From the NCBI GenBank assembly GCA_033439255.1, contig CM065882.1, positions 186,001 to 250,000 on the forward strand: a stretch of DNA of 64,000 nt, in the 5' to 3' direction. The notes under the pieces are model-generated. The model worked only from the letters and a program-made list of their open reading frames with translations. It searched no databases and had not been told where the DNA came from. A program made the position numbers and the translations under genes. The stretch's first letter is position 1. Every line of letters starts with the position of its first letter. The stretch comes from Hericium rajendrae. Lineage: Eukaryota > Basidiomycota > Agaricomycetes > Russulales > Hericiaceae. Shown here one piece after another: positions 2,730-64,000 of the stretch.

Positions 2730-5345
2730 TCAATTTCCCTTTTCCTTCGGAACGAAAGTGGCCCATTTTGTCTTCAGATCTGCCAAGAACTCATAGTCAT
2801 ACCCAACACATCGGAGGGTGACGACGTGTAGTGTCTGAAAAGCATATCATTCAGGAGGTGATACAGAGCGGCCTAGGCAAGCACATGCGTACCTCCTCTC
2901 CTACGCACAGGGCATCATGAATATCTTGATTGCTCAGGTCAATGGGTATTTTCTTCGCATCCTTCGCCTTGAATATTTCCATCTGGCGCTGGAAATTGTT
3001 CTCCGTGACTTCTTCCCCGTGTTTCCGGAGCCAGATCCGCACGCGAATATCTGCGTAGACGTCCCATTTCCTATTTTTCAGCGTGTTCCCCCATGCCGTA
3101 ATGGTCTATAGGAATTCATTGTCAGTGCGAAAAATAGAGATGAAGATTCTTGTAACGAACAGAACAAGAGAACTGTCGGGCCTCCGAGACACTAAGCGGC
3201 TGCTCAGCTCTCCGTAATTCGTAATCTCCCATATATCGCCATAGATTCTCTTTTGCGCGGATCTTGACCCACAGCGCGAGCGGACCATTCTCCAAGACAT
3301 CAGACCGATTGCATAGCATGGTGCCAGGCGCACCAGCGCGGACCGGAAGGCCTGGGTTGTTATCTGACCGTGGCAGAATCATGTGTCGGGGCGATCCCGC
3401 GGGCGCATTTTTACCGGGTGCGATCTTGACGAGCATAGGCATGCCAGGAATGCCGTAGACAGCGGTGAGGAAGGCGCGAGAGACATCGACGGACGACGAC
3501 GGGAGATCACCGGAGAAAGAGCCAAAGGACGCCACGCGTGCATTCAAAGAAGGCAGGACTGCAGTGTTGGAGGTGCTCATGACGCTATTCCGTCGTTGAC
3601 GGGTTTGGTGGGCGAAAGACGGGTCTGCGTGAGGGGTTTCAACGTGTGAATCTGTATCATATCGACGAATGAATTGTTTCTTTGCAATTTTCTTGTTCTT
3701 CCTTTTGCGAGAGGGGGAAGGAGCCTAGTGCGAAACGTGTCAGTTATCAGTGGTCGTATGAACAGAAGATTTATTCACGTCGCCATCTTCCGAGTCCTCG
3801 ATATCAGACAATTCGCTGGGCGGGCCGTCTTCAAGCTCAGGTTCCAGGGGTGCAGGTGCCGCGGGACACTACAGAGAGTAAGTAATAAGACATATGGAGA
3901 GGTCTACTGAACGCACGATGGAATGTGCCGCATTCTTTGATGCAGAAGGACATTGATCTCCGGTCTTAGCTATATCATAGACTACCGCGTGAGCTGGTCC
4001 TACACTCTGCTACATAGGAGGAAATGAGCCAGGTTTTTGAAAGAAAACCACACGGAAAGCACGAACAACGTTAGACATCGCTAGATTTCCGATGTTCGAT
4101 TTATCGATGCATGGTGCGGGAGGATCGAATGTAAGCTTACGAACTGAATCGACCTTCGACACAGGCCGTAGAACCAGATCTCAATGACAAAAAAGTGGAC
4201 AAAGATAGCGAAAACAGGTGCATACAGTTTTTGGCGGGGAAGCGTCCGAAGCCTGCTCATCGGATTCCATCTTTCGACGCTTCATCTTCAGGAGTAAGCT
4301 TGCGGCACCAGGATCATGCTTCGGCGAGTCCAGCATCTCTGTCGCTGATCGTTTGATAGGCGTCGTTGGTCCCTAGCGACGAGTCGAGTTTCAGTTGGGC
4401 CACGCGATTTGTGAAGGAGAACCTTACTTCTGGCTTGGCGTGTAGCATGACTTTGACGTTAGGGTTCAAGGTGCTCAAGTCCAACTTCGGCTGCGGAAAA
4501 CGGATCAGAAGACCCTACGACAAGAGTTAGCCTGAAGTTACCTTATATTTCTCCTCCGTGTTGCAATTCTTCAAAGGTTTGGTCCGAGGAGACTGTCGGG
4601 GACGTAAATATGTAGAGATGTCGTCACCGTGATAAGCAGACTAACGCTGTCTGACTTTATCTTCACAACCGGAGAACTTATAACACCGACTGAGAAATTA
4701 TTCAGAGAATTTGAGATGACGGAAAGTGAGCAGAAAATCGTACTGGGCACGTCATCGTCATCGTCACTGCTCAGCTCAATGAGATCGCGAGGCACGATAA
4801 ACGGCTGGAATCACCCGTTAGGTCTTGAAAGGAGCGAGATAGAAAGAATATCTAACCTTAGATGGGCTGGACGTGGGCGAACATCTAGCAGGCACGCGAG
4901 GCGAGTTACCAGCCTGGTCATCGGACACCATCGGCGACGTTGGCAAGCGCCGCGACGGCATCCGACAATTAAGAGCCGTCGTCGATGCAGGCTTTTCTGC
5001 CCGCAGACGGCCCATCTCCGCACGGAGCGTCTCCAGCTCAACGCCCCTCACCCCTGCCAACTTCATAGCTTGCTCGGCCTCCTCAGCGTGCGCAGATGCG
5101 AGTCCACGGTACCTGTTCCGAGCCTCTCGCGTGTCACTCAGGTCAGTTTCTAGGCGTAATATCTGCTGCGCGGAGTTCTCCTTCAGCCTGGATAGCTGGC
5201 GCTCGAAGTCCTCCTGTGCGAAATTTGCCTGGCTTTGGAGCGCGGCGACCTGGCGGAGGGCATCGCGCAGCTCATCCTCGAGCTGGGAGTTCCGGGTCTC
5301 CAAGGCTTGTATATGCGCCATGGTTAAGGATTGTATATGCGCCAT
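2730..5345 (-). CDS. Coiled-coil plus DUF6697-type protein, copy 2
   Basis: Tandem paralogue of the gene at 1-2529. Exon 1 (from 5345) encodes a coiled coil of about 110 residues. The next recognisable exon begins near 4800 with PRDLIELSSDDDDD, the same position as IELSSYDDE in copy 1. The C-terminal domain starts near 3580 (MSTSNTAVLPSLNARVASFG) and carries GLPVRAGAPGTML, NLWRYMGDYE and RIWLRKHGEEV. A last exon after a TTTTCAG acceptor near 2836 reads TLHVVTLRCVGYDYEF and stops at TGA 2730-2732. The acidic patch next to a coiled coil suggests a protein-interaction scaffold, which is inference. The start is ambiguous because a 24 bp duplication gives two MAHIQ starts, 24 bases apart. Middle exons (3650-4570) are small and not individually resolved. 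Confidence 0.65.
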
Positions 5346-5349
5346 GGTT
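5302..5349. repeat. 24 bp tandem duplication over the start codon of DUF6697-type copy 2
   Basis: Two adjacent 24 bp units (5302-5325 and 5326-5349) differ at one base. On the minus strand each contains an ATG, so the predicted N-terminus is an eight-residue repeat beginning MAHIQ. Either ATG could initiate. Confidence 0.8.
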
Positions 5350-5721
5350 TCGACTAGTACGTAGTGTTGTTGTGGTGTTATTGATCACCCTATTGAGGTC
5401 GAGCTTGAGCGAGTCGTCGTCGAACGGGGGCTCACAGTTTGCCGCGCGGCTCTGTAACATGTGGGAATCTCACGATCAAAGAAGAGTCTGCCCTAAATTA
5501 GCGACACTAACATCTCAACAACGAGCGTCTATCATCACTTTCTAGTGCTCTACCTCAGGCGCCGATGAAATACTCAAAATCAATAAGCTGGCCGTTATGC
5601 ATTTGGCTTCAAACCACACATACAAAATGAAATGGCGAGTACTGGCCCTGCAATTCAGGATATCATATCATACCTCCCAAGCCAACATAATCTCCCGTCG
5701 CGCGCACATGATGTCCGTCGT
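5350..5721. other. Intergenic, nothing recognised
   Basis: This holds the upstream region of the gene at 2730-5345 and the 3' flank of the gene at 5722-6945. No convincing ORF, repeat or RNA gene was seen. Confidence 0.5.
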
Positions 5722-6945
5722 CTACGGCCGTCTCCACGCAAGAGGAATATCCTCGATGCCTTGAGTCAAGCACCGCGCCTTCTGCTCAGGCGACAGCACA
5801 GCGGACAAGTGGTCTCTCAAGCGGAGACCGAACTGATGCGTCGCATTATCCTGTGCACGGCCCAAAACACGGCCTGACGCCTGACGGCGGGTCGCGTCAC
5901 TCCCGACCGGCAGATTGATCTGTCCCTTGAGAACACCCCAACATTTAGGCAAGTTGACCGCATCCAGAACTGCCTGTGGGATCGGCAGCCACTGGTCCGG
6001 CTGCAGGCCCATCTTCGCGAGCTCCGCGCTCTGCTCGGCGACTGCGTCTCTGCCCCTCTCGAGCGAGCTGACCAGTCCCGCGAGCGGTGCGTTCTTCCCG
6101 AAGACATGCTCCGGTGCGGCCCAATAGACCGCGCACAAGACACAGACAATCTGCACGATGAAAACTGCATCGACGATGAGCGACCTCGTTCAGTGTAAAG
6201 GAAGAAACAGACGCACTCCGCTCGACGAGGTGCCTGGAGAGATAGAGGTGGTTCTGGATCGGCGCAAACACGGCGTTGCGGATGGAGGCGGGCATCTTGT
6301 CCGTGATCGACAGAGCTGTGTCGTTGACGCGGCGTATGTAGCTCCAAAGGTTCGCGTATCTCTCGTCTCCGAGCTGGGGCATGTGCACTTCGAGGAGGCG
6401 CAGATACATCGTGTTCAGCATGAATGCCCGAGCCTGCCAAAGGATTGGGGACTCGCACTCCAAAGACTGGAGGAACTGGATGTCGGGAGCGAGAAACTCC
6501 TGCGGGTCTAATTGCAGCGCGGAGGTTTTCGCGAATTGTAAGTCATCGAGCGTACAGAGATAGGTTATTGCTTTCATTGCCTCTCTGTGTCGACGTATCA
6601 GTAATAATCGACAAGTAGAGAAAAGTGTTCGTACTTCAGGTTTGAGAATTGAAAGCAGGGACTTCCAAGAATGGGCTGAAGAATGATATCCGTGACCTGA
6701 CGAAAGTGGAACGACGTATGCAGGAGGGGCGAGAGGGGATCCCAGTTCACGTCTAGATCTGGGGTCACTACAAGCTCAAAGAAGGCATCGGCGAGGAAGA
6801 GCAAGATTATCTGGCGCAGAAGCTCAGCGGGGATGGGCAAAAGCGAGCGTGTGACTTGGAGGACGTCATCGTGCAATACTGTTGTGACTTTCTGGTCCTC
6901 TTTGAACAACTTGACGATAGAAGCAGCATATGAGCCTAGAAGCAT
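5722..6945 (-). CDS. F-box-like family protein, copy 1 of 3 in the window
   Basis: Three exons, 6945-6635, 6584-6217 and 6164-5722, splice in frame to 373 codons. Near the N-terminus is IPAELLRQIILLFLAD followed by a DVNWDPLSPLLH block, an F-box-like helix pair as in substrate adaptors of SCF ubiquitin ligases. The rest is a helical domain with SPILWQARAF and MPASIRNAVFAPIQ. Both blocks and both intron positions and phases recur in the genes at 38365-39556 and 62310-63559, which fixed the splice sites here. The biochemical role is unknown; the F-box reading rests only on the short N-terminal motif. The start at 6945 is the first Met of the open frame that places the motif about 35 residues in, as in the other copies. 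Confidence 0.75.
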
Positions 6946-49499: not shown

Positions 49500-49876
49500 G
49501 TGGGTGACACTGCGGGCAAAGACCCATAAAAACCTAGAATATTTGACGAAGTAATTATGGACATGTGGGCTAAGACTTGTCAAGGACTGCCATGAATATT
49601 TTGAGAAGGACTTTCTAAGAAAGCCACGAAAGAATTCACAAGGGTTGCTGCAGACATTAGAGGAATAAAATAGGAATAAACCATGTGTAAGGATGTATTC
49701 CTCTTTTATTCCTCTAATATCTGCTGCAGCCCTTGTGAATTGTTTTGTGGTTTTACTATAAGGTACTTCTCAAAATATTCACAGCAGTCCTGGAGAAGTC
49801 TTAGACTACATATTCAAAATTACTTCTTCAAATATTCGAGGTTTTTATGGGTCTTTGCCCACAGTGTGACTTTCAC
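49500..49876. mobile_element. Foldback (MITE-like) element: long inverted repeat
   Basis: The left arm (about 49500-49676) and right arm (about 49704-49876) are reverse complements over about 170 bp with scattered mismatches. Matching anchors are GGGCAAAGACCCATAAAAAC, GAATATTTTGAGAAG, AATTCACAAGGG and ATTAGAGGAATAAA. The loop is only about 27 bp. There is no coding capacity. Exact ends and a target-site duplication are not clear by eye. A foldback transposon or a MITE with long terminal inverted repeats fits best. Confidence 0.75.
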
Positions 49877-50185
49877 CTATATTAATGAGCAATGTCATGA
49901 AGGCCTCTTTTCTGCTTGACAGCGATCCCGTAAACCCTCATCGACCAATCGCGTCCGCCCGCTTGAGCCTTATTTGACTCAGTGCTGAGCGAAGTCGCCG
50001 AGGACCAACCAAGGACATACTGGAATACACACTAGGCTGAGGTACAGACAATCAATGTCACTGAATTTCCGTAATAGCAGTAGCGCCAGCGCCACGCCGA
50101 TCATACAGCCCACCGGCACCCACCAACATCCGTCTCGCAGTCGAACTCCACATCCACAACGTCCGACGCAGAACGACAAACCCCT

Positions 50186-51202
50186 CTACCACGGCGCATA
50201 CGCATGATTCGGCACCAGCAGCGCGCCGCCCACCGCATAGTTCGCCCCGGTGACGTACGCGCCCGCCTTCCCCGCAAGATACAGAAACGCGCCGCCGATA
50301 TCGTCCGCCTTCCCCGCGCGCCCGAGCGGGATGTGGCGCACGTTGTCCGCGTGCGTCGGCATCGCGGGGTCCTCGGCGGGGTTCATGGCGCTCGGGCACG
50401 AGCCCGGCTGGATCGAGTCGACGCGCACGCCGTGCACGGCGAGCTTCGCCGCGAGGATGCGCGTGAGCGCGATCAGCCCCGCATTGCTCGTCTGGTACGC
50501 TGCACGCAACCACCCTCAGCAACACATTTCGCATCCATAGCCGTCGGGCGCACCCTGGTTCGGCCAGTACGGGTTCCACACCGTCGCGGCCGTGCTGGCG
50601 ATGTTGAGCACGCTTCCGCGCCCGTCGCCGCGCGCGGCGGCGGCCGCGAGCAGCGGGAGGAACTCGCCCGTGAGCACGCCCGCGGCCCAGTTACTGAGCA
50701 CGTAGATGCGCTCCCATGCCGCGCGGTCGTCCCCGCGAGCGCGGCGCCCATCTTTGCGGCGGACTGCGTCGGCAGCGTGTGCGCGTCGAGCGCGATCGTG
50801 CCCGCGTTGTTCACGCGCGTCGACGGTGGTTTCGCGCGCGGACATGGCGGCGTGCAAGGCCAGAATGCCGGCTTTCGAGAAGAGGTCTGCAGCGGCGCTG
50901 CGTGTGCGCATGAGCGTGGGCGCGCGAGGCCGAGGAAGGGGTGCGTACTAGTTCGCGCTGTGCGGCGAGAGGGCGTTCAGCTTGGCGCAGGCATCCTGGA
51001 GCGTGTCTTCGCGCCGGCTGGATATCCATACTGGAAAGCACGAGTCCAGGATGGGCTGTTATGCGAAGGATGGCGACGTACCGCGTCCACCGGCTTTGAC
51101 CCAGGCTTCTGCCATCCAAAAGCCGAGGCCCGTCCCGCCGCCGATGATGACTGCGACGCGATCTTTCGCGCCGAAAAGCTGCTCGAGGTAATTCAAGCTC
51201 AT
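50186..51202 (-). pseudogene. Short-chain dehydrogenase/reductase, frameshifted and missing the catalytic lysine
   Basis: Exon 1 (51202-51082) gives MSLNYLEQLFGAKDR and the Rossmann motif VIIGGGTGLGFWMAEAW. Exon 2 continues WISSRREDTLQDAC. In the next exon the frame moves by one base just before the conserved VNNAG motif (about 50822) and returns near 50730 (WERIYVLSNWAAG, then GSVLNIAS), so two opposite shifts lie about 90 bp apart. A final intron gives NPYWPNQAYQTSNAGLIALTR, where the family expects Y-x-x-x-K; here the Lys position is Asn (AAT). The C-terminus (YVTGANYAVGGALLV) is normal, stop at 50186. A full-length active enzyme is unlikely. A TATATAAAG sequence lies upstream. Confidence 0.75.
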
Positions 51203-51263
51203 GCTGGTATCAAATGCGGGTGAAGAGGAGGCGGTAATTCCGCGCGGACCGAATCTCTTGTTG

Positions 51264-51272
51264 CTTTATATA
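51264..51272 (-). promoter_or_regulatory. TATA-like element of the SDR locus
   Basis: TATATAAAG on the minus strand, about 62 bp upstream of ATG 51202. Confidence 0.5.
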
Positions 51273-51660
51273 CTTTGAAGCAATCGATGTAAACGCGCTA
51301 GCTTCGTGGACCCGATATGAATCTTTTCAGATTGACTGCGCGTGCGATCAGTATTGTTTTCTCTGTTTCTTAGCCTAGGATATGTAGTGGAGATTCCGCG
51401 GTCGGTAAACCGATTGCGCAGGACACTGGTAGCTAGCTGGCATATCAATCGTTGAACGGCTGCCGGTCGTCAATCATCGATTGTACTCATCTGCTATCAG
51501 GTCAGCGGAATCATTGGCTCTAGAGTCTCCAGTATCATTCGCACCTCACATCCCGAGCTAAGGTATTGCTCTCAAGTCGAAGCAAAGCGACTCGTCAAGT
51601 TGTCTTGTTGGGTTCATCCTGTTGTCGAAATGATGTCCGGGCCGGCGGGCCGCTGGCCTT

Positions 51661-51802
51661 GTCGGACTGAGCCTATAACGAGCCTGCGAGAATAGGCTCA
51701 GGGAGTGCTGACTAAACGAGACGAGTAGGGTGCGGAGCTAGAGTCAGATGGTCCGCACCCTCTTCGTCTCGTATCATCAGCACTCCCGACGCGTTTCTCT
51801 CA
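51661..51802 (+). repeat. Ngaro repeat A1 (142 bp)
   Basis: Identical by eye to A2 at 61757-61898. It contains nested perfect inverted repeats: 51669-51676 with 51692-51699, 51701-51711 with 51777-51787, 51716-51724 with 51764-51772, and 51728-51736 with 51752-51760. Confidence 0.9.
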
Positions 51803-52267
51803 ATTTTGTCTTCGACGTCTTTTACTTTACTATTAAACCTTCTAATCTGCGTAATAATCATGCCCCCCACTACTTCTCATACTTCGAACGACAGTCCCGT
51901 GCAAGGACGATCTAGCCCCTATTTCACCCGCGCGCAAGCTCGTACGGTAGCTGGAAGTGCTCAAGAACAACATGTGTCGTCTTCTCGCGATCATGGATCT
52001 ATCACTGCCGAGTACGTCATCCAACTATTGAAAGAGGAAGAGAGAAAGCGGAAAGTACGAAATCAACGGAGGGCGCAAAGACGGGCAGATGAGGGAGAAG
52101 CGGAGGTTTCGGAAGATGAAGCTGAAGTGCCGGAGGTTCTAGCGACTCTGAGGAATGTTGAAGGACGAGACGTTGAGGAGCAGAATCCGCGGCCACGTAG
52201 TGCTGACCATGATAGGGATTTGACAGCTCGGGGTGAAACGCGCACCTTGGAAGATGACACAGCCTCC

Positions 52268-52272
52268 AATCG
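52268..52272. repeat. Target-site duplication AATCG, left copy
   Basis: AATCG directly before the left LTR; the same five bases follow the right LTR at 57409-57413. Confidence 0.9.
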
Positions 52273-52759
52273 TGTAACGGATGGTTTATCAGTTACTACT
52301 ATAGTCTTCTACTTTCTTACTCTTTTCTACCTGGCTTACTTTTCGAGTTTTGCAGAGTTTCCTTATTAGGATAGCTGAGTTTGAATCATGTACTTAGAGC
52401 GGATTTCCTTATTGGGAATAAGGATCTATCTTGCCAACTCACCACCATCTGTCTGCTTTTGTCTCAGTCTCTGCTTGTTCTCCTCATATCTGAAAGGTTC
52501 TCTTGGGATCCAACCCTCAAAGGAAGGTGTGTGGCCCCCAAAACCCTCATCAGGAGGTCTATATCTGCTGCTGGCCCTCAGAGGAGGTGCCAGCTCATCA
52601 CTCATCTGCTTGGCTGCAGGACTGAGGCATCCTCGGTTCTGTTAGCTCTAGCTTGTGGACTCTCTCTAGGAGGTCTACAACACCTTTATACCCTCCTCAC
52701 TCGCTCGCCTACCTTGGACTTCCCGGGCAGTAGCGGCTCGACCTCTATCGTCCGTTACA
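52273..52759 (+). repeat. Left LTR (487 bp)
   Basis: Near identical to 56922-57408. TG...CA termini with 9 bp inversion. Confidence 0.92.
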
Positions 52760-53689
52760 AAGGTGGATACATCCGGAAGTCCACTTGTCTCTGGCTGGCT
52801 GGTGAGGACTTCACATGTCTCATTCAGTTCCCCTCTCCCTGGACGTGGCATCCATGTCCAGGTTCCTTATCTCAAGTGACGATGTCAAGTCGTCTTATCG
52901 CCATTCGCTGGAGAGCTGCGTTCTCGCTCTTCGGTCTCATTCCTTTGTCGACAGTGATCTTGTCGACAATGGGCTTGGTATCCAAGCCCATCGGTTTCAG
53001 ATCAGGGAGCCCTTGCTCCATTTTGCCTTAGAGGTCATCGAGCGACTTCAATCGTCGCTCGATCAAGTCTGGTTTTGCCTGCCATACCCCCCAAGGTCTG
53101 TCTTCACGGTCGACAGGGATCTCGTTCTCCGTTCCTGTCTCCATGGGTCACCATCTCCCTGGGACGTTCGCTGGGCCTGGCGCACATTGCAGGCACGAGT
53201 CGCCGAAGGTGTCGATATCCTATTCCGGTATGCAGGTGCTCTTCCTCCTGCCATCAAGACTCCTCCTCCTCCTCGAGTTGAGGACCTCAGGGACGTGGAA
53301 TCCATGTCCCTGGCAGTCCCAGGAGCTCCCTACCTTCGCATAGAACATGTCCCATGTGTTCTCCAGCCGCTGTCTGTCGACGCAAGACTCGCTCGGCCAT
53401 TCCAGGCCTCCTCCTCCTCTGGGCAGCTCCCTGCCTCTGGCTCCTCCTTCGGCCCAATTCTGGCTGCTTGGAGGGCCCTATATGCATCTCTAGTCCTCAT
53501 AGAGATGCTTCGCTTCGTTGCCCTATCAACAGGGCCTCGCCTCGAGGAGTCCCATGCCGAGGAGAGGGTTAGGGAGCCTGGTAGTTCACCCCCTCTCTAA
53601 CTCTCTCATTTCTGGATGGATTCCCTCGGTTTCTTTTGTATCCTATTCGCTTTTCAAACGCTTTCCACCTCGCTTCAAGTCCAGGAGGC

Positions 53690-56600
53690 TGGGGGGGCTG
53701 TAGATCGCTGAGATCAGGCTCTGCCAGGCGATGTAGGGAGGTTTTGGACGCAAATCGTGCTTTGTACGTTGCCCCTGCTCCTTGAATCGCTCCATAGTCC
53801 TCTTCTCCTTCTCAAACGCTTTCGAACGAGCCCAAGAACGTCTCAAGCGCTCCAGCGGTTGTCAAGATATCTTCATGCTCTCCTCATCCTCCCTCTGAAG
53901 CGAAATTTCACTGTATTTCCTTCAAATTTTCTTCTATTCCTTCGAAACTTGCTCCGTGGAATCCATGGAGCATTCGTTACACCTTCGCATAACCGCTTTT
54001 ACCCTGGGAGAAGACCCAGCTCATCAAATCTTCGCCATAGCTTATCTCCTATGGCCGGACTATATTGGGGCTCATGAAGTCAGTTCTTCGCCGATCCTTA
54101 TACGGACAGGACGCCTCGATTCGGACCATCCACTTGAATCCAACGAGCCCTTGCACGAGCTGATTGGAGCCCTACTTCCCATTTCATCGGCGATCCTGCT
54201 CTGCCTGGAGGAGAGATCATATTACACTGCTGTATCTCTCCTTTCCCTCTATCGATTTGGAACCGGGTTTTTGCACGTCAATGTGTGCCTTTAGGACCGT
54301 TCCGCTCGCCAGGACGCTTCTCAGAGTGTCCAGCCATCCCCTTGGAATCCGAGGGTATCAAGGACGCTTCCTGGTGCGCTAAGATGGCCACAGCGTGGCG
54401 CCCATGCTAGCTATGACCAAACGGACTTTTGGCCCGAGCCCGCATTGCAAATACGCTTTTAACAAGCCCTCATACGTCCAGATCCGACCACCGGTTCTCA
54501 TTATGCTCGAGGGGCTACTCACCCTGCTGCCCCTCCTGAGTGCCAGCTGGTATCTCCCTTAATACTGGACCGATTTCGAAGCGGTCTTTTGCACTCGACT
54601 CGCATTATTGACCCGGTACTGGAACACCAAAACGATTTGAGGGACGTCCAGCCGTTCCTCCGGAATTGTGTCCATAGTCCAGGGGATTCCCCAGGCAGCC
54701 CCAGCTCCATATCTCCGTGACCAGGGGTGCTATCAACAAGCGGTTTCTTGTCATCTATTCCTTTATTTCACCATATTCATTCGTCTTAAGACCAGGAGGC
54801 TGGGGGGGCTGCCAATGGCCGGACTTGGGCGACCCTGGGCGATGTAGTGGCACTTGGATGAAGCTCTGTGGTATCCACTGGAGCTTCATTCCTCCTGTTC
54901 TTCCTACATTCAGCCTACCCTTTGCAAACGCTTTTCAATAAGCCCAAGATCGTGCTGATTGGTCCAGCCGTTCTCAAGATCGAATCCTCTCCTCTTCCTC
55001 CTCCCTCTGGGGCGAATTTTCCTTGTATCTTCTTCAATTCTCCTCCAATTCTTTCGAAACCTTTCTCGGTGGAATCCACTGGGAATTCGCTTTCGTATTC
55101 CTGCATTTGTTCTGCCCTGAGAGGCCCCTTTTCTTCGCCATCTCTCTGGCCCTGCCTGCTCTTCAGGCCAGACTTATCTCTACACCCAAGGCCGAATATC
55201 CAGCAGATTGTCAAACGGTTTGGACGCCCACATTTGCGTTTCTAATGCGATTCCAACAAGCCCTCATACGACCTGATACGACCAGCCGTTCCCATTCCAC
55301 CTATGGGGCCACAGCCTCTGGGAAGGGCCCAGACTGCATATCCATATCTCTGCTGTCCGTGGACCAATTCCTAAGCAGATTTTTGCATCTGGACCGCAAT
55401 AATTGTCGTATTCTGGGACACCCAGAACATCTCCAGGAGCACCATCGCATTCCGTTGGATTCCAATGGAACAGGTGGCGCTCTTGGGTGCCTTAGAAGGC
55501 TTTTAGCGCTCGATCCACATGCGCTATCGCCGCAAACTCTTCTGTCCCTTAACATGTTCATAAAAGGGATTCGAACAAGCCCCCAATCGTGGTTATCCGC
55601 CCAGCCGTTCCCATTCGACCTTCGCCTGGCCTTTGCAGCTAGCCTTCCTCCCTATCCTGCCACATCTCCTTCATTTCTGGACCGATTTGGATGGGTATTT
55701 TTGCGCTCTGCTCGCATACTCGAACGCTTTTGAATCCCTATATGAGCTCTGGGGTATTCTATGGCTTGGGTAGTCATCCAGCAAGTCACTTGGCGATTTA
55801 GGCCTCTTTTGGCTCGGCCATATCTCGGCATCCAGACCACGGATCAACAAGCGGATTTTTGCATCTCCTCCGCATTGTTCACACCTCCAAGACGCGCCCT
55901 CACACGTCCTAATCCGACACGATCTTGCTCCGCAAATCCCTTCTCTCCATCCTCATCTCCTTCAACATCCTAGGGATGGCATCCATCCCTTTCTGCTTAT
56001 CTGCAACCCTCGCTGCTCTTACGCTCTGTGATCCTCATTCAATCCTGTCTACTCTCAACTCAAATCTCCTGCACCAGTCTGGGGGGGCTCGCACGCCTCA
56101 CTCATTGTCCGTCCTCGACCCCACCATCCACCCATATTTTGGACTTCCATCTAGTTTCTGATGCGGAGTCTGGGGGGGCTTGTGTGACTAGGGCCTGTGG
56201 CACAGTTTTCAGGATTTTGGGACCTTAGAGGTATGGAGGTTTCGCTCCCCCTGTCCATCTACTGGGAGTACCTGCACAGAGCTAGCGATGGGGGGCTATA
56301 GGGATGTATAGGAGGGAGGCTGGAGCCTTGCAGAGCACTGGATCCAGCATTCCTTTGGAGTCAGACCCTTAGGGCTGAGAGCAGCTGGGAGCTGCATAGG
56401 AGCTTGTGAGATCCTGCCTTCCTGCTGTGAGCAGACTGGAGGAGTGGCTGGATGCCTCAGGCCTCAGCCATCCTGAGACCAGCTTGGAGACCTAGGAGCT
56501 GAAGAGATCCTGTCTCTTTGCTGAGAGCAGTCTGGAGTCTGGGTGGCTGAGATAGCCTGTGGCCTTGGCTTAGCATCTTTCATCCTTCCCTTTTGGATGT

Positions 56601-56920
56601 GAAGTGCTGCAGCTGGAGGACTTGTAGCTTGGCTAGGGTTGGAGGCTGCTCTGTTAAGAGAGCTTGGTGCAGTTAAGTCTGGAGCTGCAGAGCTTCACAT
56701 GCAGATTTTCTCTTCAATTTTCTTCTCCAATTTTTCACTCTAATTTTTCACTTTTATCTTGTTTCTACTTTCTTCTCTAGATTTTTCTCTGATTTTTCTA
56801 CTTTAACCCTTTTTCTTCTTTTCTAATTTTGTCTTGTTCCCTTTCTGCTTTGTTCATTCTCAGCTTTGCACTACTCACTTTGTGTTCAGGAGTCTCAAAG
56901 ACCAAGAAAGTGGGGGGGCT
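53690..56920 (+). repeat. Five copies of a G-rich 10-mer inside the LTR element
   Basis: TGGGGGGGCT occurs at 53690-53699, 54801-54810, 56080-56089, 56171-56180 and 56911-56920. The last is at the polypurine-tract position. The first two also share the preceding CCAGGAGGC. Confidence 0.85.
54440..55920 (+). repeat. Degenerate modules of about 320-470 bp in the LTR element interior
   Basis: An AACAAGCCC-type anchor near 54461, 54936 (ATAAGCCC), 55255 and 55574 is followed 20-40 bases later by CCAGCCGTTC or a close variant (about 54489, 54965, 55283, 55600). A further CCAGCCGTTC is at about 54647. The modules are too diverged for exact borders by eye. Confidence 0.55.
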
Positions 56921-56921
56921 C

Positions 56922-57408
56922 TGTAACGGATGGTTTATCAGTTACTACTATAGTCTTCTACTTTCTTACTCTTTTCTACCTGGCTTACTTTTCGAGTTTT
57001 GCAGAGTTTCCTTATTAGGATAGCTGAGTTTGAATCATGTACTTAGAGCGGATTTCCTTATTGGGAATAAGGATCTATCTTGCCAACTCACCACCATCTG
57101 TCTGCTTTTGTCTCAGTCTCTGCTTGTTCTCCTCATATCTGAAAGGTTCTCTTGGGATCCAACCCTCAAAGGAAGGTGTGTGGCCCCCAAAACCCTCATC
57201 AGGAGGTCTATATCTGCTGCTGGCCCTCAGAGGAGGTGCCAGCTCATCACTCATCTGCTTGGCTGCAGGACTGAGGCATCCTCGGTTCTGTTAGCTCTAG
57301 CTCGTGGACTCTCTCTAGGAGGTCTACAACACCTTTATACCCTCCTCACTCGCTCGCCTACCTTGGACTTCCCGGGCAGTAGCGGCTCGACCTCTATCGT
57401 CCGTTACA
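56922..57408 (+). repeat. Right LTR (487 bp)
   Basis: See left LTR at 52273-52759. Confidence 0.92.
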
Positions 57409-57413
57409 AATCG
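57409..57413. repeat. Target-site duplication AATCG, right copy
   Basis: Matches 52268-52272. Confidence 0.9.
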
Positions 57414-58288
57414 GGAGCGGAGCGAGGCTCACGGGGAGCTCGCGCTCTTCAGAACGAATCGCAAGGCCAACGCCGTTGACGATTTACGTTTTGTGGCTTC
57501 TGAGACTATCGGCAATTCCTTCAAGTTGAATGATCATTCTATTCCCCGTGATATCTCTATCCTCGCCCGTTGCGGACGCTCACCTCCTCTCACCCTCTTC
57601 TCTTCGGAGTCTCTCGAGCGGATTCGCACCGGTGTTGGAGTCAAATATACGAAAATGGGTACCGGCACATACGAAAACACGCGCGTCCTCGAGATCTCTG
57701 ACTTCCCTTCCGAAAACACGCTCTCCACGTTCCAATGGATTGCTTGCTATCATACTTTCCTCGACTTCATGGCCTCACATGCTGAACGGGATATTTTTGA
57801 AGGATGGGCCCGCCATTACGATGCAATGATCAATGACACGCACTTCGGCGAATGGTTCCCGGCCTTTCGCGATTTCGATCATGACGTTCGAGCTCAATTT
57901 TTCTCTGCTCCCTTTGTCGTTGACCCTGATGAACCGAATTGGGGGCGCGGACTCGACCTAAAGCGCATGCTCTTTTTGCAGCAATCACAGCGGTCTCCTC
58001 CTGCTCCAACACGATTCCAACCCTATCCACAGCAATCCTCCTTTCAGCGAGGGCCCCGTTCCTTTCGTGAACCCGCGACCGAGCGTATCAGTTTGTGCTT
58101 GCGCTGCGGGCATCGCGACGGCCATGTCGCTGCCCGTTGCACGGCCACCAAGTCCTCTCGCCCTGAACGTCGTATCCTCGTCGACTACCAAGGAGGCAAC
58201 CTCTACCGCTGCACAGACGGGAGACAAGTCTGTCTCCGCTTCAACATTGCGCCGAACTGTTCCATCGTCGCCCCACGTCATCCAATAC

Positions 58289-60243
58289 ATGTCTGTTCCT
58301 TATGCAACGACGAGCACCACGGAGCGCGCGCGTGCACTCGCAACTGAGCGAGCACGCATAATCACTCCTTACATTGCTTCAGCTTGGGAGCAGGCTCTCG
58401 AGCGTGCCGATCTTTCTTCCAAATATCCAACACTCGTTCACGATCTTGTATACGGCGCACCTATTGGCAATCCACCCCCTCTTTCACATACTTTCATCCC
58501 TCCCAACATGCCCAATGCCCTGCAGCATCCTGACTTTATCGAAGAACACATACACGAGGAACTGGCTGCAGGCCGATTTTCCGGACCTTTATCTTTATCG
58601 GACGCATTCCTTTTTTTCGGCGGTCATTTTCGCACAGCTCCTCTCGGTGTTGTCGAGAAAGAGCCTGGTTCGGGCAAGTGGCGTATGATTCGAAATCTAT
58701 CCGCCGATGATGAGTATGGTGAATCGACCAATAGCTGGTTGGATGCGAAGGATTCTGTCATCATGTGGCATACGGTTGCACATTTTGCTGACTTGGTATG
58801 TATCCTCTGGCTTCTTACAATTCCTTTGTTCGACTGCACCGGGCTGGTGCTGCTTGCGCCTGAAACGCGCCGTTTGCGTCCGTCTGACGCTGTCTGCACC
58901 GGGCTGGTGCTGCATGTGCCTGAAAGGCACTGTTTGCGTCCGCCTGACGCTGTCTGCACCGGGCTGGTGCTGTCCATGCCTATTTGCACTATGTTGCGTC
59001 CGTCTGACGCTGAGCGTACATCATTACTCACAGCGTTTTCCGTCGTCAGATTGCTGTCGCTCCACCTGGCACTCAAGCCGCTAGCCTCGATGTTGCCAAA
59101 GCTTACCGTTGCTCTCCCATCACTCCTCAGCATAAATGCTACATTGCGATCCAGTGGAAAGATCAAATTTATGCTGACCATTGCGCACCCTTTGGTATGA
59201 CCACAGCTGGCAATATTCAAGGCCAAGTCGCAGATGCCACGATTGACATCTTCGAACATGCGATGATCACCGCTATCAAGTGGGTCGATGACTTCGACTT
59301 CTTACGCTACCCTATACGGTCTCTCCCACATAATGATGGGACATTCTCTTTCGAGTATGCCTATGATTTGTCTGATATACTCCACATCACGGGTCCTTTG
59401 GGTATTCCGTGGCATGATGTCTCGGAGAAGGGTCACGATTTCTCCTTTTCTACGCAGTACGGTGGCTTTGAGTGGGATTTGCAACATAAACGTGTCGCGT
59501 TATTGGAAAAGAAGCGCCTCAAATATCGCCGCAAGATTAACGACATCCTTTCCGTACCGCAAGGCAAAGTCACTCTACCGATTGTGCAATCAATTCATGG
59601 AACACTTCAACATGCTGCCTTTGTATATCGTGATGGCCGATCCTTTCTTCCCGCGCTTTCCCATTTTAGCAGCTCTTTTCCCAACAAATTTGTCCAATTT
59701 CATCTTCCGTCTCGTGTTCGTAATGATTTGATTTGGTGGCATCATATGCTGTCTATTCATGACTTCTCGCGCTCTCTCTTTCCCCGATCCTCTTACGACC
59801 CTCACATTTTTGTTGATGCCTCTACTTCGTGGGGTATCGCACTCGTTGTTCAAGATCAATGGGCAGCCTGGCGACTTCTACCCAACTGGCGTTCTGACGG
59901 CCGAGATATCGGTTGGCTAGAATTCGTTGCCGTTGAATTAGCAGCCTTGTGGATTTCAACTCAATCGTTTCACGATGCTTTGATCCTCATCCATGGCGAC
60001 AATCAAACCGTGATCGACTCATACATGAAAGGCCGTTCTCGCAATATCGCCCGTAATGCTGTTATCCGCCGTCTCGCCGAGCATCTTATTCCAACCAATG
60101 TAGCCCTTCAGGCAACTTACGTTCCATCTGCATCCAATCCGGCTGATCCCTTCTCTCGCGGCGACCTGGGGTCAGATACGGATCGTCTTCCCATCACGTT
60201 TGAGCTCCCTGTCGAGCTCCACAATGTTCTTCTTTATGTATAA
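58289..60243 (+). CDS. Ngaro reverse transcriptase-RNase H
   Basis: Two exons, 58289-58795 and 59050-60243, join in frame to 650 total codons less the intron (169 + 398 codons, 566 residues). Reverse transcriptase blocks: GKWRMIRNLS, motif A SLDVAKAYRCSPI, motif B FGMTTAGNIQG and motif C WVDDF (the catalytic Asp pair). The RNase H-like domain follows: IFVDASTSWGIALV, then VAVELAALW, HGDNQTVIDSY and PSASNPADPFSRGD. The intron is 254 bp and holds three 60 bp repeats. The start ATG 58289 overlaps ORF1 by 59 bases, and the end overlaps the recombinase ORF by 44 bases, so translation is probably coupled or reinitiated. The frame is intact, so this protein could still be made. Confidence 0.88.
58835..59014 (+). 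repeat. 60 bp minisatellite, three copies, within the RT intron
   Basis: Units 58835-58894, 58895-58954 and 58955-59014, each starting TGCACCGGGCTGGTGCTG and ending with a TCTGACGCTG-type run. The third is the most diverged. Confidence 0.85.
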
Positions 60244-61539
60244 AGTTCACTTACTTGACGCGTCTACACGTGTAGACGCAGCGCGATCCGATGAGAGCAC
60301 CTTCGTCAAGTCCTCTCTGCCGCAATCGGTTCGTCGTTGTCGACCCCGCATCCCTCGCAAAAACAATGCTATCCAACCAAATACACTCCGCCCTTCCGTC
60401 CTTGCGCGTGATCGTTTCGTCAGTTGGAATACGCCGTGGGGCTCAAAATGGCTCACGCAAGTGGGCCGTTCTCTCCCTCCATCGTCCATCGCCAAATTCC
60501 ATCGCGTTATGCTCTCCTCAGTATCTCTCAAGACACGTTCGAATTACGGTGCAGGTTTACTACGCTTCACGCAATTTTGTGACCGTCACCACATTCCTGA
60601 AGATCTCCGCATGCCTGCATCGGACGCCTTGCTCGCCTTTTTTATCTCTGACGAAGGTGCCGAGAAAGTTGGTACCGGGGCAGTTGAAGCTTGGCTACAT
60701 GGTTTACAGCTATGGCATGCCGTCAATGGGGCACCATGGAATGGAGGTCAGATTCTACGGCGCATCAAACGCGGTGTCTTCAATCTCACTCCAGAAATGT
60801 CACGTCTGCCCCCACGTCAACCTGTCATGGCATCTCATATGCACATCCTCCATCGTGCTCTTGATCTATCCAACACCCGAGATGCGTGCATTTGGGCTGC
60901 CGCCCTCGTTGCGTGGCAGGCTTGCTGCCGTTTGGGCGAGCTCCTCACTAGCTCTATGTCCAGTTTCGATTCGAGTCGGTATGTTTTCTCGCCTCGTCAT
61001 CTAGTACCGTCATCCGATAATTCTTCAGTCACGTTTCGCGTGCCTGCCGTACCAAACAGGGCATCGCTCCTAACGGACACCGCTTCCTACAATTTCAGAT
61101 CCCGTGGTCCAAGACCAAACAAGCATCCGGCGAATGGATCACTCTCACAGAATCCTTTGATGATCTCGACTGTTTTTCTGCTTTTCTTCACCATTTCTTT
61201 GTCAATGCTGATGTTCCTGCCTCTGCGCCCCTTTTTTCCTACCGTACGACATCCGGTTGGCAACCTTTATCACGCGCCGCCTTCATGCGACGTTGCAACG
61301 ACATTTGGGCAGATGCCGGCATTTCGTCTTTCACTGGACATAGTTTTCGTATCGGAGGAACTACACATTTGCTTCTTAGTGGTGTTGAACCATGGATTGT
61401 CATGTGTCAAGGTCGTTGGTCCTCGAAGGCTTTTCTGGCATATTGGCGAAAAGTGGAATTTATCTTGCCTCTTTTTCTTGGTGATGCTTATGACAAACTA
61501 CCATCTATTCGTTCTGCTATTACGCAGCTACATGATTAA
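60200..61539 (+). CDS. Ngaro tyrosine recombinase
   Basis: Two exons, 60200-60978 and 61029-61539, join in frame to 429 residues across a 50 bp intron with a GTATGT donor and TTCAG acceptor. The N-terminal part has the core-binding helical region (SLKTRSNYGAGLLRFTQFCD). The catalytic part has the first Arg in CCRLGELL, the H-x-x-R pair in TGHSFRIGGTTHLL, a Trp/His-position in CQGRWSSKAF and the nucleophile Tyr in FLAYWRKVE. It integrates circular or linear cDNA by site-specific strand exchange, replacing the DDE integrase of LTR elements. Without the intron the frame would go wrong before the H-x-x-R motif, which supports splicing. Start at 60200 overlaps the RT ORF by 44 bases. Confidence 0.88.
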
Positions 61540-61632
61540 TTGTATTATTTTCTTCTGTCCATTGTTTGGGGGAGTCGGTTTCTTTGTTAGATGGATCCCT
61601 CCTGACCGCTCTTTTGCATTCGCGGTTTGGAT

Positions 61633-61756
61633 GGGGTAGTAGGCATCCATCTACCTTCGGTTTCTCGCACCCGAAGGACGCGCGATCACGACGGAATCGC
61701 GCCTTTTCCTTTCCCCCATACTTGTCTTGTCCTACGGCAGCTCGAGTCTAGGCAGC
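61633..61756 (+). repeat. Ngaro repeat B1 (124 bp)
   Basis: Identical by eye to B2 at 61928-62051; directly abuts A2. Confidence 0.9.
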
Positions 61757-61898
61757 GTCGGACTGAGCCTATAACGAGCCTGCGAGAATAGGCTCAGGGA
61801 GTGCTGACTAAACGAGACGAGTAGGGTGCGGAGCTAGAGTCAGATGGTCCGCACCCTCTTCGTCTCGTATCATCAGCACTCCCGACGCGTTTCTCTCA
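61757..61898 (+). repeat. Ngaro repeat A2 (142 bp)
   Basis: Identical by eye to A1 at 51661-51802, including the nested inverted repeats. Confidence 0.9.
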
Positions 61899-61927
61899 CC
61901 CACCCACCCACCCGGTGCTTTGATTCC

Positions 61928-62051
61928 GGGGTAGTAGGCATCCATCTACCTTCGGTTTCTCGCACCCGAAGGACGCGCGATCACGACGGAATCGCGCCTT
62001 TTCCTTTCCCCCATACTTGTCTTGTCCTACGGCAGCTCGAGTCTAGGCAGC
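61928..62051 (+). repeat. Ngaro repeat B2 (124 bp)
   Basis: Right end of the element. A 29 bp linker beginning with CACC repeats separates it from A2. Confidence 0.9.
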
Positions 62052-62309
62052 AAACCGCCTGCCGGTCGTCCTCTTCGAACTTGACGGCGTGATGTTTTTG
62101 ACTCGATGAGCAAAACATACCAGTACTCTCTGAACACGTCCATTTCCAGCGAGCAGATCGGTACTCGCATACAGAACTGTGGATAAGGGGTGAGCCGCGG
62201 TGGTATAGTGCAAACTGTGACCGTTTCCTCTCTATTCAGACCCGCTGCGCACCACGGACATCCTGCTTTCACGTTGGCCTAGCCCGAAAGCAAACATCGT
62301 GTGTGGCAG

Positions 62310-63559
62310 ATGAATTCAAGTCAGCCGAAAGTATCAAATACTACACCACCCGCAGCGCTGTTGCTTCCCACTGAACTCCTTCGCGAAATCGTCCTGTATC
62401 GTCTCGCGAATGCGTTCTGGGATCTACTCGTGGAGCCTGATCTCAACAAGGACTGGGATCCTCTTACACCTCTTCTACACGCATCGTCCCAGTTCCGACA
62501 TGTCACGACGAATCTCCTTGGCTACATCATCGGCGAGCCATCGTTAGACGATAATCTGAGGCGAGTACAGTATTATGCTTTCCCGCCCATCTTATCTCTA
62601 ACATCACCCTCCAGACCGACAGTCCAGTACCAAGCTGTTCTTCGCGAAATCAAGCGCCTCAGAAATCTCCTTGCTACCACCGACCCAAACGAGACTGCGG
62701 CCCTGGATGCCTCCATATACCGCCAGATCGTGCCCCACGAGGACTGCAGCTCGCCCATCTTGTGGCACGCGCGCGGAATAGTCACTTTGTCCCTGCATCT
62801 ACGCATACTAGATGCCGCACACGAGTCCAGTGGTTTCGAGGGGTCGTTTCGCGGGTTTATGGGCGCCGCGATGGAGCTTGTTTTCCGGGACGCAAAGATG
62901 CCCATGTCCATCCGCGACGCCGTCTTCGTGCCTCTACACGTACGGTACTTCGCCATGGACACCCTCGCGCAGCGAAGTAAGCATGCATCCCTTCAATCGC
63001 TCCCCGCTTAGCCGCTGACGACTCGCCTGCAGTAATGCTGCTCTCGAAAGCCTGCGGTGCGATCTGCGAGCTGCTACCAGACTTCCTGTGCGTCTCCGAA
63101 GAACAGTTCCAGATCGTCGAGCCCGAGTTCGACAAGTTCCTCAAGCCCCTGTCTCGCCCGCGCGACTTCCGGGAGTACCTCCCCACCGCCGAGTCGCTCC
63201 CCATTCCGCCGCCCACCCTGGAAGCGCTGCAGTTCCACGAGGCGCTCGCGTGTCTGATGCCGCCCGCGGATGTGGAGGAGGGCAGCGCCAAGGTGCGCGT
63301 GTGCCGTCTGGCGCGGGAGGGGCTGTTGTTTACGCTGCCGAGGCAGCAGCGGGCAGCGTTTGACGCGGTGCCGGCGGTTTCGGAGGTGGTGGATGGCGCG
63401 GGGCGGGGGTGCGAAGATCAGGCGGTTGGGCAGGCCGCTGACAGACAGGACTCAGGTGATGAGCGGTGTCGAAATGCGGCAAGCTATGGCAAGTCGTTCT
63501 TCACACCTGGTGCACGCGCCTTCTTACCGCGTCTAGGCTCGACAGAGACGGCCGTATAA
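62310..63559 (+). CDS. F-box-like family protein, copy 3 of 3
   Basis: Exons 62310-62560, 62615-62976 and 63033-63559 join to 379 codons. Family blocks: LLPTELLREIVLYRLANAFW, LNKDWDPLTPLLHASS, SSPILWHARGIV, MPMSIRDAVFVPLHV, and the exon 3 start MLLSKACGAICELLPDF. Intron positions and phases match the copies at 5722-6945 and 38365-39556. By that homology the first intron has a GC donor (GCGAGT) and AG acceptor; it is 54 bp, so retention would add 18 residues in frame. The start could also be 62301, three codons upstream. Role unknown; the N-terminal motif resembles an F-box. The element at 51661-62051 ends 258 bp upstream, so the promoter may be affected. Confidence 0.72.
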
Positions 63560-64000
63560 TCGGGGGGAGGCTGGCGGATCGTTAGGACTATAACACTTGA
63601 TCATCCATATCTGAGATGTTCACTTTCAGTTCTGATGTTCATTATCAGAGGCATTCACCCCGGATTCAAGGACCAATGCCGGGCGGGTTGACATTACTAT
63701 ATCTTTTCGCGATGTGGTTCGACCGGCTGATTTCGAGGTAACTCAGATGTGGTTGTGAAATCATCGCGACGCAGCTGCTTGTCGGAAGCCAGCTTGCTAA
63801 TGGATGAAGGCCGTGATTCTCGTGTTCTGTCTGTTCGGTTCGTAAGATAAGTACTGCTTTCCGCCTATACATTTCATCTGACGAGACATCACGAAGATGT
63901 ATTCATGCATTCACTTTTATACGGAATGTTGCCAGGCCCTCCAACTCGGCAAGGGAAGCCTCGAAGTCAGCGCTGGGTTGTGTCCCGTCTGAGAACGCGA
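63560..64000. other. Window end, nothing recognised
   Basis: No supported gene. Short frames only. Confidence 0.45.

Follow-up and report, generated by a model that had tools for sequence, protein, structure and literature searches.

A Ngaro-type retrotransposon in Hericium rajendrae with a position-conserved reverse transcriptase intron and a possible hairpin mark on its unspliced RNA

In the Hericium rajendrae genome (GenBank assembly GCA_033439255.1) we analysed a stretch of 64,000 nucleotides (nt) of contig CM065882.1 (positions 186,001 to 250,000, forward strand), here called the window; coordinates refer to it, and all genes, repeats and introns described lie on its plus strand. Positions 51661-62051 hold an element whose sequence features support a tyrosine-recombinase retrotransposon with Ngaro-type anatomy, which a long terminal repeat (LTR) retrotransposon has later split. 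Its reverse transcriptase (RT) gene contains a putative intron. Our preferred reading, to which we give a probability of about 0.4, is that the unspliced RNA of this Ngaro-type element would be the copied template and that hairpins in the RT intron would mark this RNA in cis.

The RT-RNase H gene consists of exon 1 (58289-58795) and exon 2 (59050-60243), separated by a predicted intron of 254 nt in phase 0 (58796-59049, GTATGT...GTCAG). A second one of 50 nt (60979-61028, GTATGT...TTCAG) would divide the tyrosine recombinase gene into exon 1 (60236-60978) and exon 2 (61029-61539). Borders were picked by eye at GT-AG sites, and the frame was then checked. Only across these two putative introns are both frames open; the claim of the first-pass annotation that frames are open after splicing holds to this extent for RT and recombinase, and does not hold for Gag. 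A search of this genome for other copies, as that annotation had proposed, returned two loci with recombinase DNA (L054 and L055, ~70% identity) and further tyrosine recombinase-type relatives with RT protein (36-44%). The RT intron was found at the same codon, with GT-AG borders and in phase 0, in 9/9 copies with both exons, at lengths of 254-583 nt. These copies are the window copy, L054, L055 and L062-L067, with L064 and L066 being nearly one copy; L070, L073 and L074 were excluded from the count, as both exons were not seen. The intron position is kept down to 40% protein identity, and the more distant RTs of L068, L069, L071 and L072 are uninterrupted at this site. Besides the window copy, L054 has the recombinase intron, as a 53-nt GT-AG counterpart at the same codon; it is exactly absent in L055, and the recombinases of L063, L065 and L066 align through the site in one piece. 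Because L055 reads straight through and L054 has its intron there, a one-base frameshift considered for the window recombinase was replaced by the 50-nt intron. Introns can therefore be lost or gained here. Copying of spliced RNA should erase introns, so the persistence of the RT intron but not of the recombinase intron needs explaining.

In this group of elements, which carry split repeats named A and B in the order A1 ... B1 A2 B2, a DNA copy is made of the element RNA, B2 and A1 come together in a circle, and the recombinase inserts this circle without target duplication. For the window element we propose that the circle would likewise join B2 to A1, a junction of which B1-A2 is a copy already present, and be inserted by the recombinase without target duplication. 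RT-RNase H would be translated from spliced RNA and unspliced RNA would serve as the template for copying, and the RT intron would persist because the unspliced and not the spliced RNA would be copied. Runs of hairpins in the intron would be a cis-acting packaging or export signal on the unspliced RNA, perhaps recognised by the zinc knuckles in the Gag-like protein; that the structures act in packaging or export is our inference. Non-coding relatives would keep and amplify the hairpin runs, and their arrays, found in L056 and L057, may be intronic as well. Template choice and intron keeping in tyrosine-recombinase retrotransposons are little explored, and a position-fixed structured RT intron, together with non-coding relatives that keep little beyond A (one also the 3' untranslated region (UTR) and B), would offer short candidate cis-acting signals.

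The RT intron of the window contains three tandem units of 60 nt (58834-59013) with hairpins of a 5-bp stem and a 5-nt loop. These units resemble those of L056 and L057 (68-86%; best E 1.5e-10 and 7.9e-8), two loci with no Gag, RT or recombinase match that carry A and hairpin arrays, L057 also having the 3' UTR and B. The arrays display two kinds of hairpin, type I (NNNTC-CTGTY-GANNN) and type II (GGYGC-5 nt-GCRCC). In the 46.8-Mb genome the type I pattern (two consecutive cores) gave 20 exact matches, of which 11 were in L057, 7 in L056 and 2 in the L055 intron, with 0 for the reversed control; the type II pattern gave 24 (L057 23, L056 1), with 0 for its control. In 27 type I units (L057 13, L056 8, L055 5, L054 1) 66/81 outer positions pair, compared with 53.9 +/- 2.8 for shuffled right arms (maximum 65 in 5000 shuffles), and sliding the arms by -1, +1 and +2 lowered pairing to 8, 28 and 38 of 81. 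Pairing of type II stems drops to 80/232 when slid by +1. Counts of five-nt-loop hairpins were 81 in array II of L057 (22.5 shuffled, maximum 38 of 200 shuffles), where loop lengths 3, 4, 6 and 7 stay in the shuffle range, 16 in array II of L056 (6.3 shuffled, maximum 13) and 10 in the window intron (3.1 shuffled, maximum 8, tandem units not being allowed for). The arrays make a good case for hairpins, the window's own intron a modest one. Rfam matched none of seven sources, the window and six loci. By eye, GTAAG-like donors and TAG acceptors seem to border the arrays at 4880-6220 of L057 and 4550-5030 of L056 (oriented coordinates).

The introns of L062-L067 revealed other structures. All six carry a hairpin GCAUGGUCU-NNN-GGACCCUCUGC at positions 82-104 of the extracted stretch, whose stem letters change in pairs among them and which occurs in 0/3 introns of the window's clade; two earlier versions of the pattern had given 0 and 1 matches. 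Four of the six (L063, L064, L066, L067) have 3-4 hairpins of the form GAGCGYGRA-stem-GGAGCTC each, a form that fits a kink-turn. A strict kink-turn scan found 4, 1, 1 and 3 in these four introns, with shuffle means of <=0.10, and 0 in the other five introns. Folding z-scores were -5.05 for the L065 intron, -3.49 for L062, -2.47 for L064, -1.84 for L063 and -1.79 for L054. A wider form of the proposal would place a genome-selection signal inside a conserved spliceosomal RT intron, such that spliced RNA makes the enzyme uncopied, unspliced hairpin-bearing RNA is the template, sister clades hold different modules (5-nt-loop or kink-turn-like) and non-coding parasites amplify the arrays. We consider this extended version unlikely as a whole; if true, a genome-selection signal in the RT intron would account for the retention of an intron by a retroelement.

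The hairpins could also govern splicing or nuclear export of the intron-containing RNA and not its packaging, an explanation we hold to be rather improbable. It would agree with the location of the hairpins within an intron, and kink-turn-like repeats, as plausible targets of a host RNA-binding protein, would suit such a role in the sister introns. Retroelements need export of unspliced RNA, for which Cer1 has a dedicated protein according to the abstract of PMC10309623. Export and packaging are, however, indistinguishable here, and the non-coding relatives fit both.

Several results weigh against a hairpin mark on the unspliced RNA. The type I and type II patterns match neither the window intron nor the L054 intron, and the array and sister-intron motif patterns were composed after the sequences had been seen. 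Compared with shuffles, the three window intron units gave fractions of 0.010, 0.010 and 0.155, and the RT intron of the window folds ordinarily as a whole (z -0.81, 21/100 shuffles as good). Loop length 3 reaches the shuffle maximum in this intron too. The introns of L054 (3, shuffled 2.7) and L055 (3, shuffled 4.0) show no excess of five-nt-loop hairpins, whose number also stays within the shuffle maximum in array I of both L057 and L056. In 58 type II units (L057 47, L056 7, window 4) 190/232 stem positions pair, against 177.4 +/- 3.2 in shuffles with a maximum of 194. When only distinct units were counted, 45/60 positions paired in 20 type I units (shuffle maximum 47) and 80/112 in 28 type II units (shuffle maximum 87). 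Folding of the L055, L066 and L067 introns is modest (z -1.21, -1.42 and -1.34), and exon controls span +0.95 to -2.04. Finally, the two intron clades have different structures, so that a function common to both is something we infer.

Two further explanations were considered. According to the first, what persists in RT is an old spliceosomal intron of the ordinary kind, kept passively through rare movement or through poor splicing with unspliced RNA copied by default, and the hairpins are drifted, functionless minisatellites. The small number of copies found with recombinase DNA, the ordinary folding of the window intron and the failure of both array patterns to match it fit this explanation. 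We hold it to be doubtful. Against it, the recombinase intron varies among close copies while the RT intron is kept in all nine, type I pairing and the loop length lie above what shuffles and slid controls give, and the array patterns are confined to L056, L057 and the L055 intron. According to the second, the arrays arose by slippage on self-complementary units, and pairing would reflect the spread of units and not selection on RNA. Tandem units of 60 nt in the window and steps of ~20 nt in L057 are as slippage would produce them, and covariation is weaker once duplicate units are removed. We regard slippage as improbable. Against it, the loop in array II of L057 is held at 5 nt with other lengths in the shuffle range, and type I combines constant loop letters with varying stems in L056, L057 and the L055 intron alike.

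Penelope-like elements are retroelements said to keep introns through retrotransposition, but they differ from the window element in enzymes and integration. We found no report of structured or conserved introns in Ngaro elements in the open literature, subscription papers being outside this search, and none of separate template and translated RNAs in a tyrosine-recombinase element, again in the open literature with most subscription papers outside the search. The word intron has 0 occurrences in the main texts of PMC3783388, PMC2685390, PMC3266345, PMC4157794 and PMC9210276, as have hairpin and splic in the main text of PMC3783388; the main text of PMC8547959 uses intron twice, in one instance for insertion sites. 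LTR elements do separate template and translated RNAs, as described for BARE (PMC3735527) and Cer1 (PMC10309623). BARE1/BARE2 resemble our proposal in having separate RNA pools for translation and copying and a parasitic subfamily that supplies template RNA; they are LTR elements in which splicing favours Gag (PMC3735527), whereas the window intron interrupts RT. In Cer1, an LTR retrotransposon, unspliced genomic RNA is exported and packaged beside spliced mRNA, but the element has its own export protein, and the abstract of PMC10309623 mentions no hairpin-array intron.

A paper by Goodwin and Poulter of 2004 is said to have founded the Ngaro group. In the window element the left terminus is A1 (51661-51802, starting with GTCGGACTGAG), a repeat of 142 nt, and its partner A2 lies at 61757-61898. 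The second repeat has 124 nt, with B1 at 61633-61756, directly adjoining A2, and B2 at 61928-62051 as the right terminus (...AGGCAGC). A2 and B2 are separated by a spacer of 29 nt (61899-61927), to which L054 is 93% identical over 28 nt. A repeat search reproduced the coordinates and the order A1 ... B1 A2 B2 given in the first-pass annotation, and in a self-comparison of the window A1/A2 and B1/B2 were each 100% identical, without the mismatch that had been named beforehand as speaking against the assignment. Judged from sequence, chance is excluded for exact repeat pairs of 142 and 124 nt. RT-RNase H and tyrosine recombinase frames were present between the repeats, as had been claimed. L054, L055 and the non-coding L057 have a 3' UTR similar to that of the window element (61540-61632). 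The outer ends of the window element are the same in L054 and differ in L057 at the first base only, and L055 has the same ...AGGCAGC end. Neither the window copy nor L054 or L057 showed a target-site duplication >1 nt at its ends.

A Pfam search gave no match to a methyltransferase domain in the RT or recombinase proteins, and a repeat search found no inverted repeat pair of >=25 nt within 50000-64000. The anatomy is taken as Ngaro-type because the split direct repeats lie downstream of the recombinase, RT-RNase H precedes the recombinase, and a methyltransferase was not found. According to PMC4157794, Ngaro elements are defined by split direct repeats with the internal repeats downstream of the recombinase. 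PMC3783388 describes for fungal Ngaro elements the same A-pol-B-A-B repeats with RT-RNase H and tyrosine recombinase and without methyltransferase; beyond these features, the window element has a structured A repeat and, at a conserved position in RT, an intron that carries runs of hairpins. Within the DIRS group, PAT elements share split direct repeats and the tyrosine recombinase, but they encode a methyltransferase (PMC4157794), which was not found in the window element, whose RT stop overlaps the recombinase start. Neither a methyltransferase nor inverted terminal repeats were found that would suggest membership in PAT or DIRS.

A complete Ngaro of 10.4 kb, as first described, had to be rejected, since the nested LTR element splits the Gag-like open reading frame (ORF) and fills about half of the 10,391 bp. 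Subtracting it leaves ~5.25 kb of Ngaro proper. The element itself appears to be an ordinary Ngaro, and half of the originally described length belongs to another mobile element. Insertion had been called recent, which holds in relative terms only: there are 0 differences in 266 bp of A and B, followed by a nested insertion with LTRs that differ at 1/487.

The 5' part of the Gag-like ORF (51860-52272, ATG at 51860) ends at the nested element and is Gag-like by position only. The 3' part (57414-58347) has two motifs, CLRCGHRDGHVAARC and CSLCNDEHHGARAC, which we take to be zinc-knuckle-like; residues 48-312 of this fragment are 60% identical to L054. In Pfam searches the 5' part had no match and the 3' part none over its cut-off, and the predicted fold of the 3' part (mean predicted local distance difference test score 37.5) was set aside. 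The RT-RNase H frame opens with an ATG at 58289, and its first stretch coincides with the last part of the Gag-like ORF, which is read in a different frame. Its exon 2 contains LDVAKAY, WVDD and the RNase H residues D-E-D-D and ends with a stop at 60241-60243; the recombinase ATG overlaps this stop (ATGTATAA), and recombinase exon 2 contains HSFR, GRW and Y. The names of these catalytic motifs are our assignments. The overlap of RT stop and recombinase ATG comprises 8 nt and reads ATGTATAR in the window, L054 and L055, with ATGTATAG in L054 and L055. With the putative introns removed, RT-RNase H has 566 amino acids (aa) and the recombinase 417 aa. Alignment of five RT-RNase H sequences showed D183, WVDD 247-250 and D425/E465/D486/D535 to be invariant (5/5), and R232, H352, R355, W378 and Y386 (R-HxxR-W-Y) were likewise invariant in 5/5 recombinases. 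The spliced RT-RNase H had no RVT_1 match in Pfam, weak DNA_pol_viral_C matches appeared in 4/5, and no PDB profile match was convincing; identification of the RT by Pfam or PDB profile was dropped, as no match was usable. Phage_integrase was matched by the recombinase with E 0.0016 (exon-2 frame) and 0.0025 (spliced protein), both under the curated cut-off, and the recombinase had no match among PDB profiles.

The A repeat is predicted to form a branched hairpin, with a 10-bp hairpin next to a long arm (DNA z -8.66, RNA z -8.51; 0/200 shuffles as good in each case). The 29 alignable pairs give 116 cells in four copies, of which 97.4% hold standard pairs, a value equalled by 15/500 shuffles; three pairs have changed on both sides in a compensatory manner. 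The 29 pairs are those left from 49 predicted ones after omission of the closing stem, inner loop pairs and the variable tip (20). The closing stem is lost in the second A of L054. B was rejected as a structured RNA (DNA z -0.57, RNA z -0.68). A search for distant A repeats with a covariance model in 19 sources, in which the sister loci searched stop short of the element ends, gave, apart from known A copies on either strand, a single weak match at 49605-49748 of the window (21.6 bits, E 0.00014, G+C 0.38), which lies outside the element.

Instead of an RNA structure, the A hairpin may be an inverted-repeat recombinase site in double-stranded DNA, a possibility that we take seriously at slightly below even odds and that is compatible with any reading of the intron. 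Arms that are long, pair almost perfectly and contain few G-U pairs, the location of A at the presumed circle junction and the similar z for DNA and RNA are consistent with such a site. The long arm has 83 nt, however, and usual recombinase core sites are shorter, which counts against it; furthermore, the tip varies between copies yet still tends to fold.

None of the window copy, L054 and L055 is an intact autonomous copy, because the Gag-like ORF is split in the window and the other two have defects of their own. L054 (C2) keeps A1, B1, A2, the spacer and B2, is without the 5' Gag-like part, and has a stop in RT and an insert in the recombinase. The insert in the recombinase gene of L054, at 4825-6055 (oriented), has 32-bp inverted ends (97%). 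In L055 (C14) both RT and recombinase contain stops; one B is present, and A was not found. B occurs at 71-79% in L054, L055 and L057, yet a DNA search with it returned only the two copies of the window element; DNA-based copy counts are therefore lower bounds. A tree restricted to 15 RTs of this genome grouped the window copy with L054 and L055 with supports of 0.72-0.77, and L058, as one long branch, joined the base of these three with a support of 0.97. L058 (C2:4174500-4182500) has a 68-nt A fragment (93%) beside an RT/recombinase element that is much more distant (24% and 27% identity). A search of this genome with the sequences flanking the window copy returned nothing but these flanks and thus no empty site.

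The nested LTR element spans 5,136 bp (52273-57408) and interrupts the Gag-like ORF. It comprises a left LTR (52273-52759, 487 nt, TG...CA), an internal part (52760-56921) with a G-rich polypurine tract (PPT)-like sequence at its right end (gaaagtgggggggctc) and a right LTR (56922-57408) with 1 difference to the left one over 487 nt, and it is flanked by a direct 5-bp repeat, AATCG, at 52268-52272 and 57409-57413. The first-pass annotation was silent on these LTRs; the repeat search reported an exact pair of 300 nt, the full LTRs having 487 nt. LTR matches at 99-100% numbered 40 in the genome, its own two included (40 of 104 candidates scored). The internal part had 39 genome matches, of which 30, its own copy counted, were full-length at 95-100%; the other 29 full-length copies are 95-98% identical. 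The TG...CA LTRs, the 5-bp target-site duplication, the PPT and the dispersed copies identify the nested element from its sequence as an LTR retrotransposon, and it later split the Gag-like gene of the Ngaro. None of its nine stop-to-stop frames of >=100 aa scored above a Pfam cut-off, and 8/9 were without a match at E 0.1; the element is taken as non-autonomous because no RT was recognised. The genome is rich in retroelements, with 150 RVT_1 matches scored among 294 candidates. To the right of the Ngaro element an open frame at 62283-63011 reads like what we take to be the start of an F-box protein.

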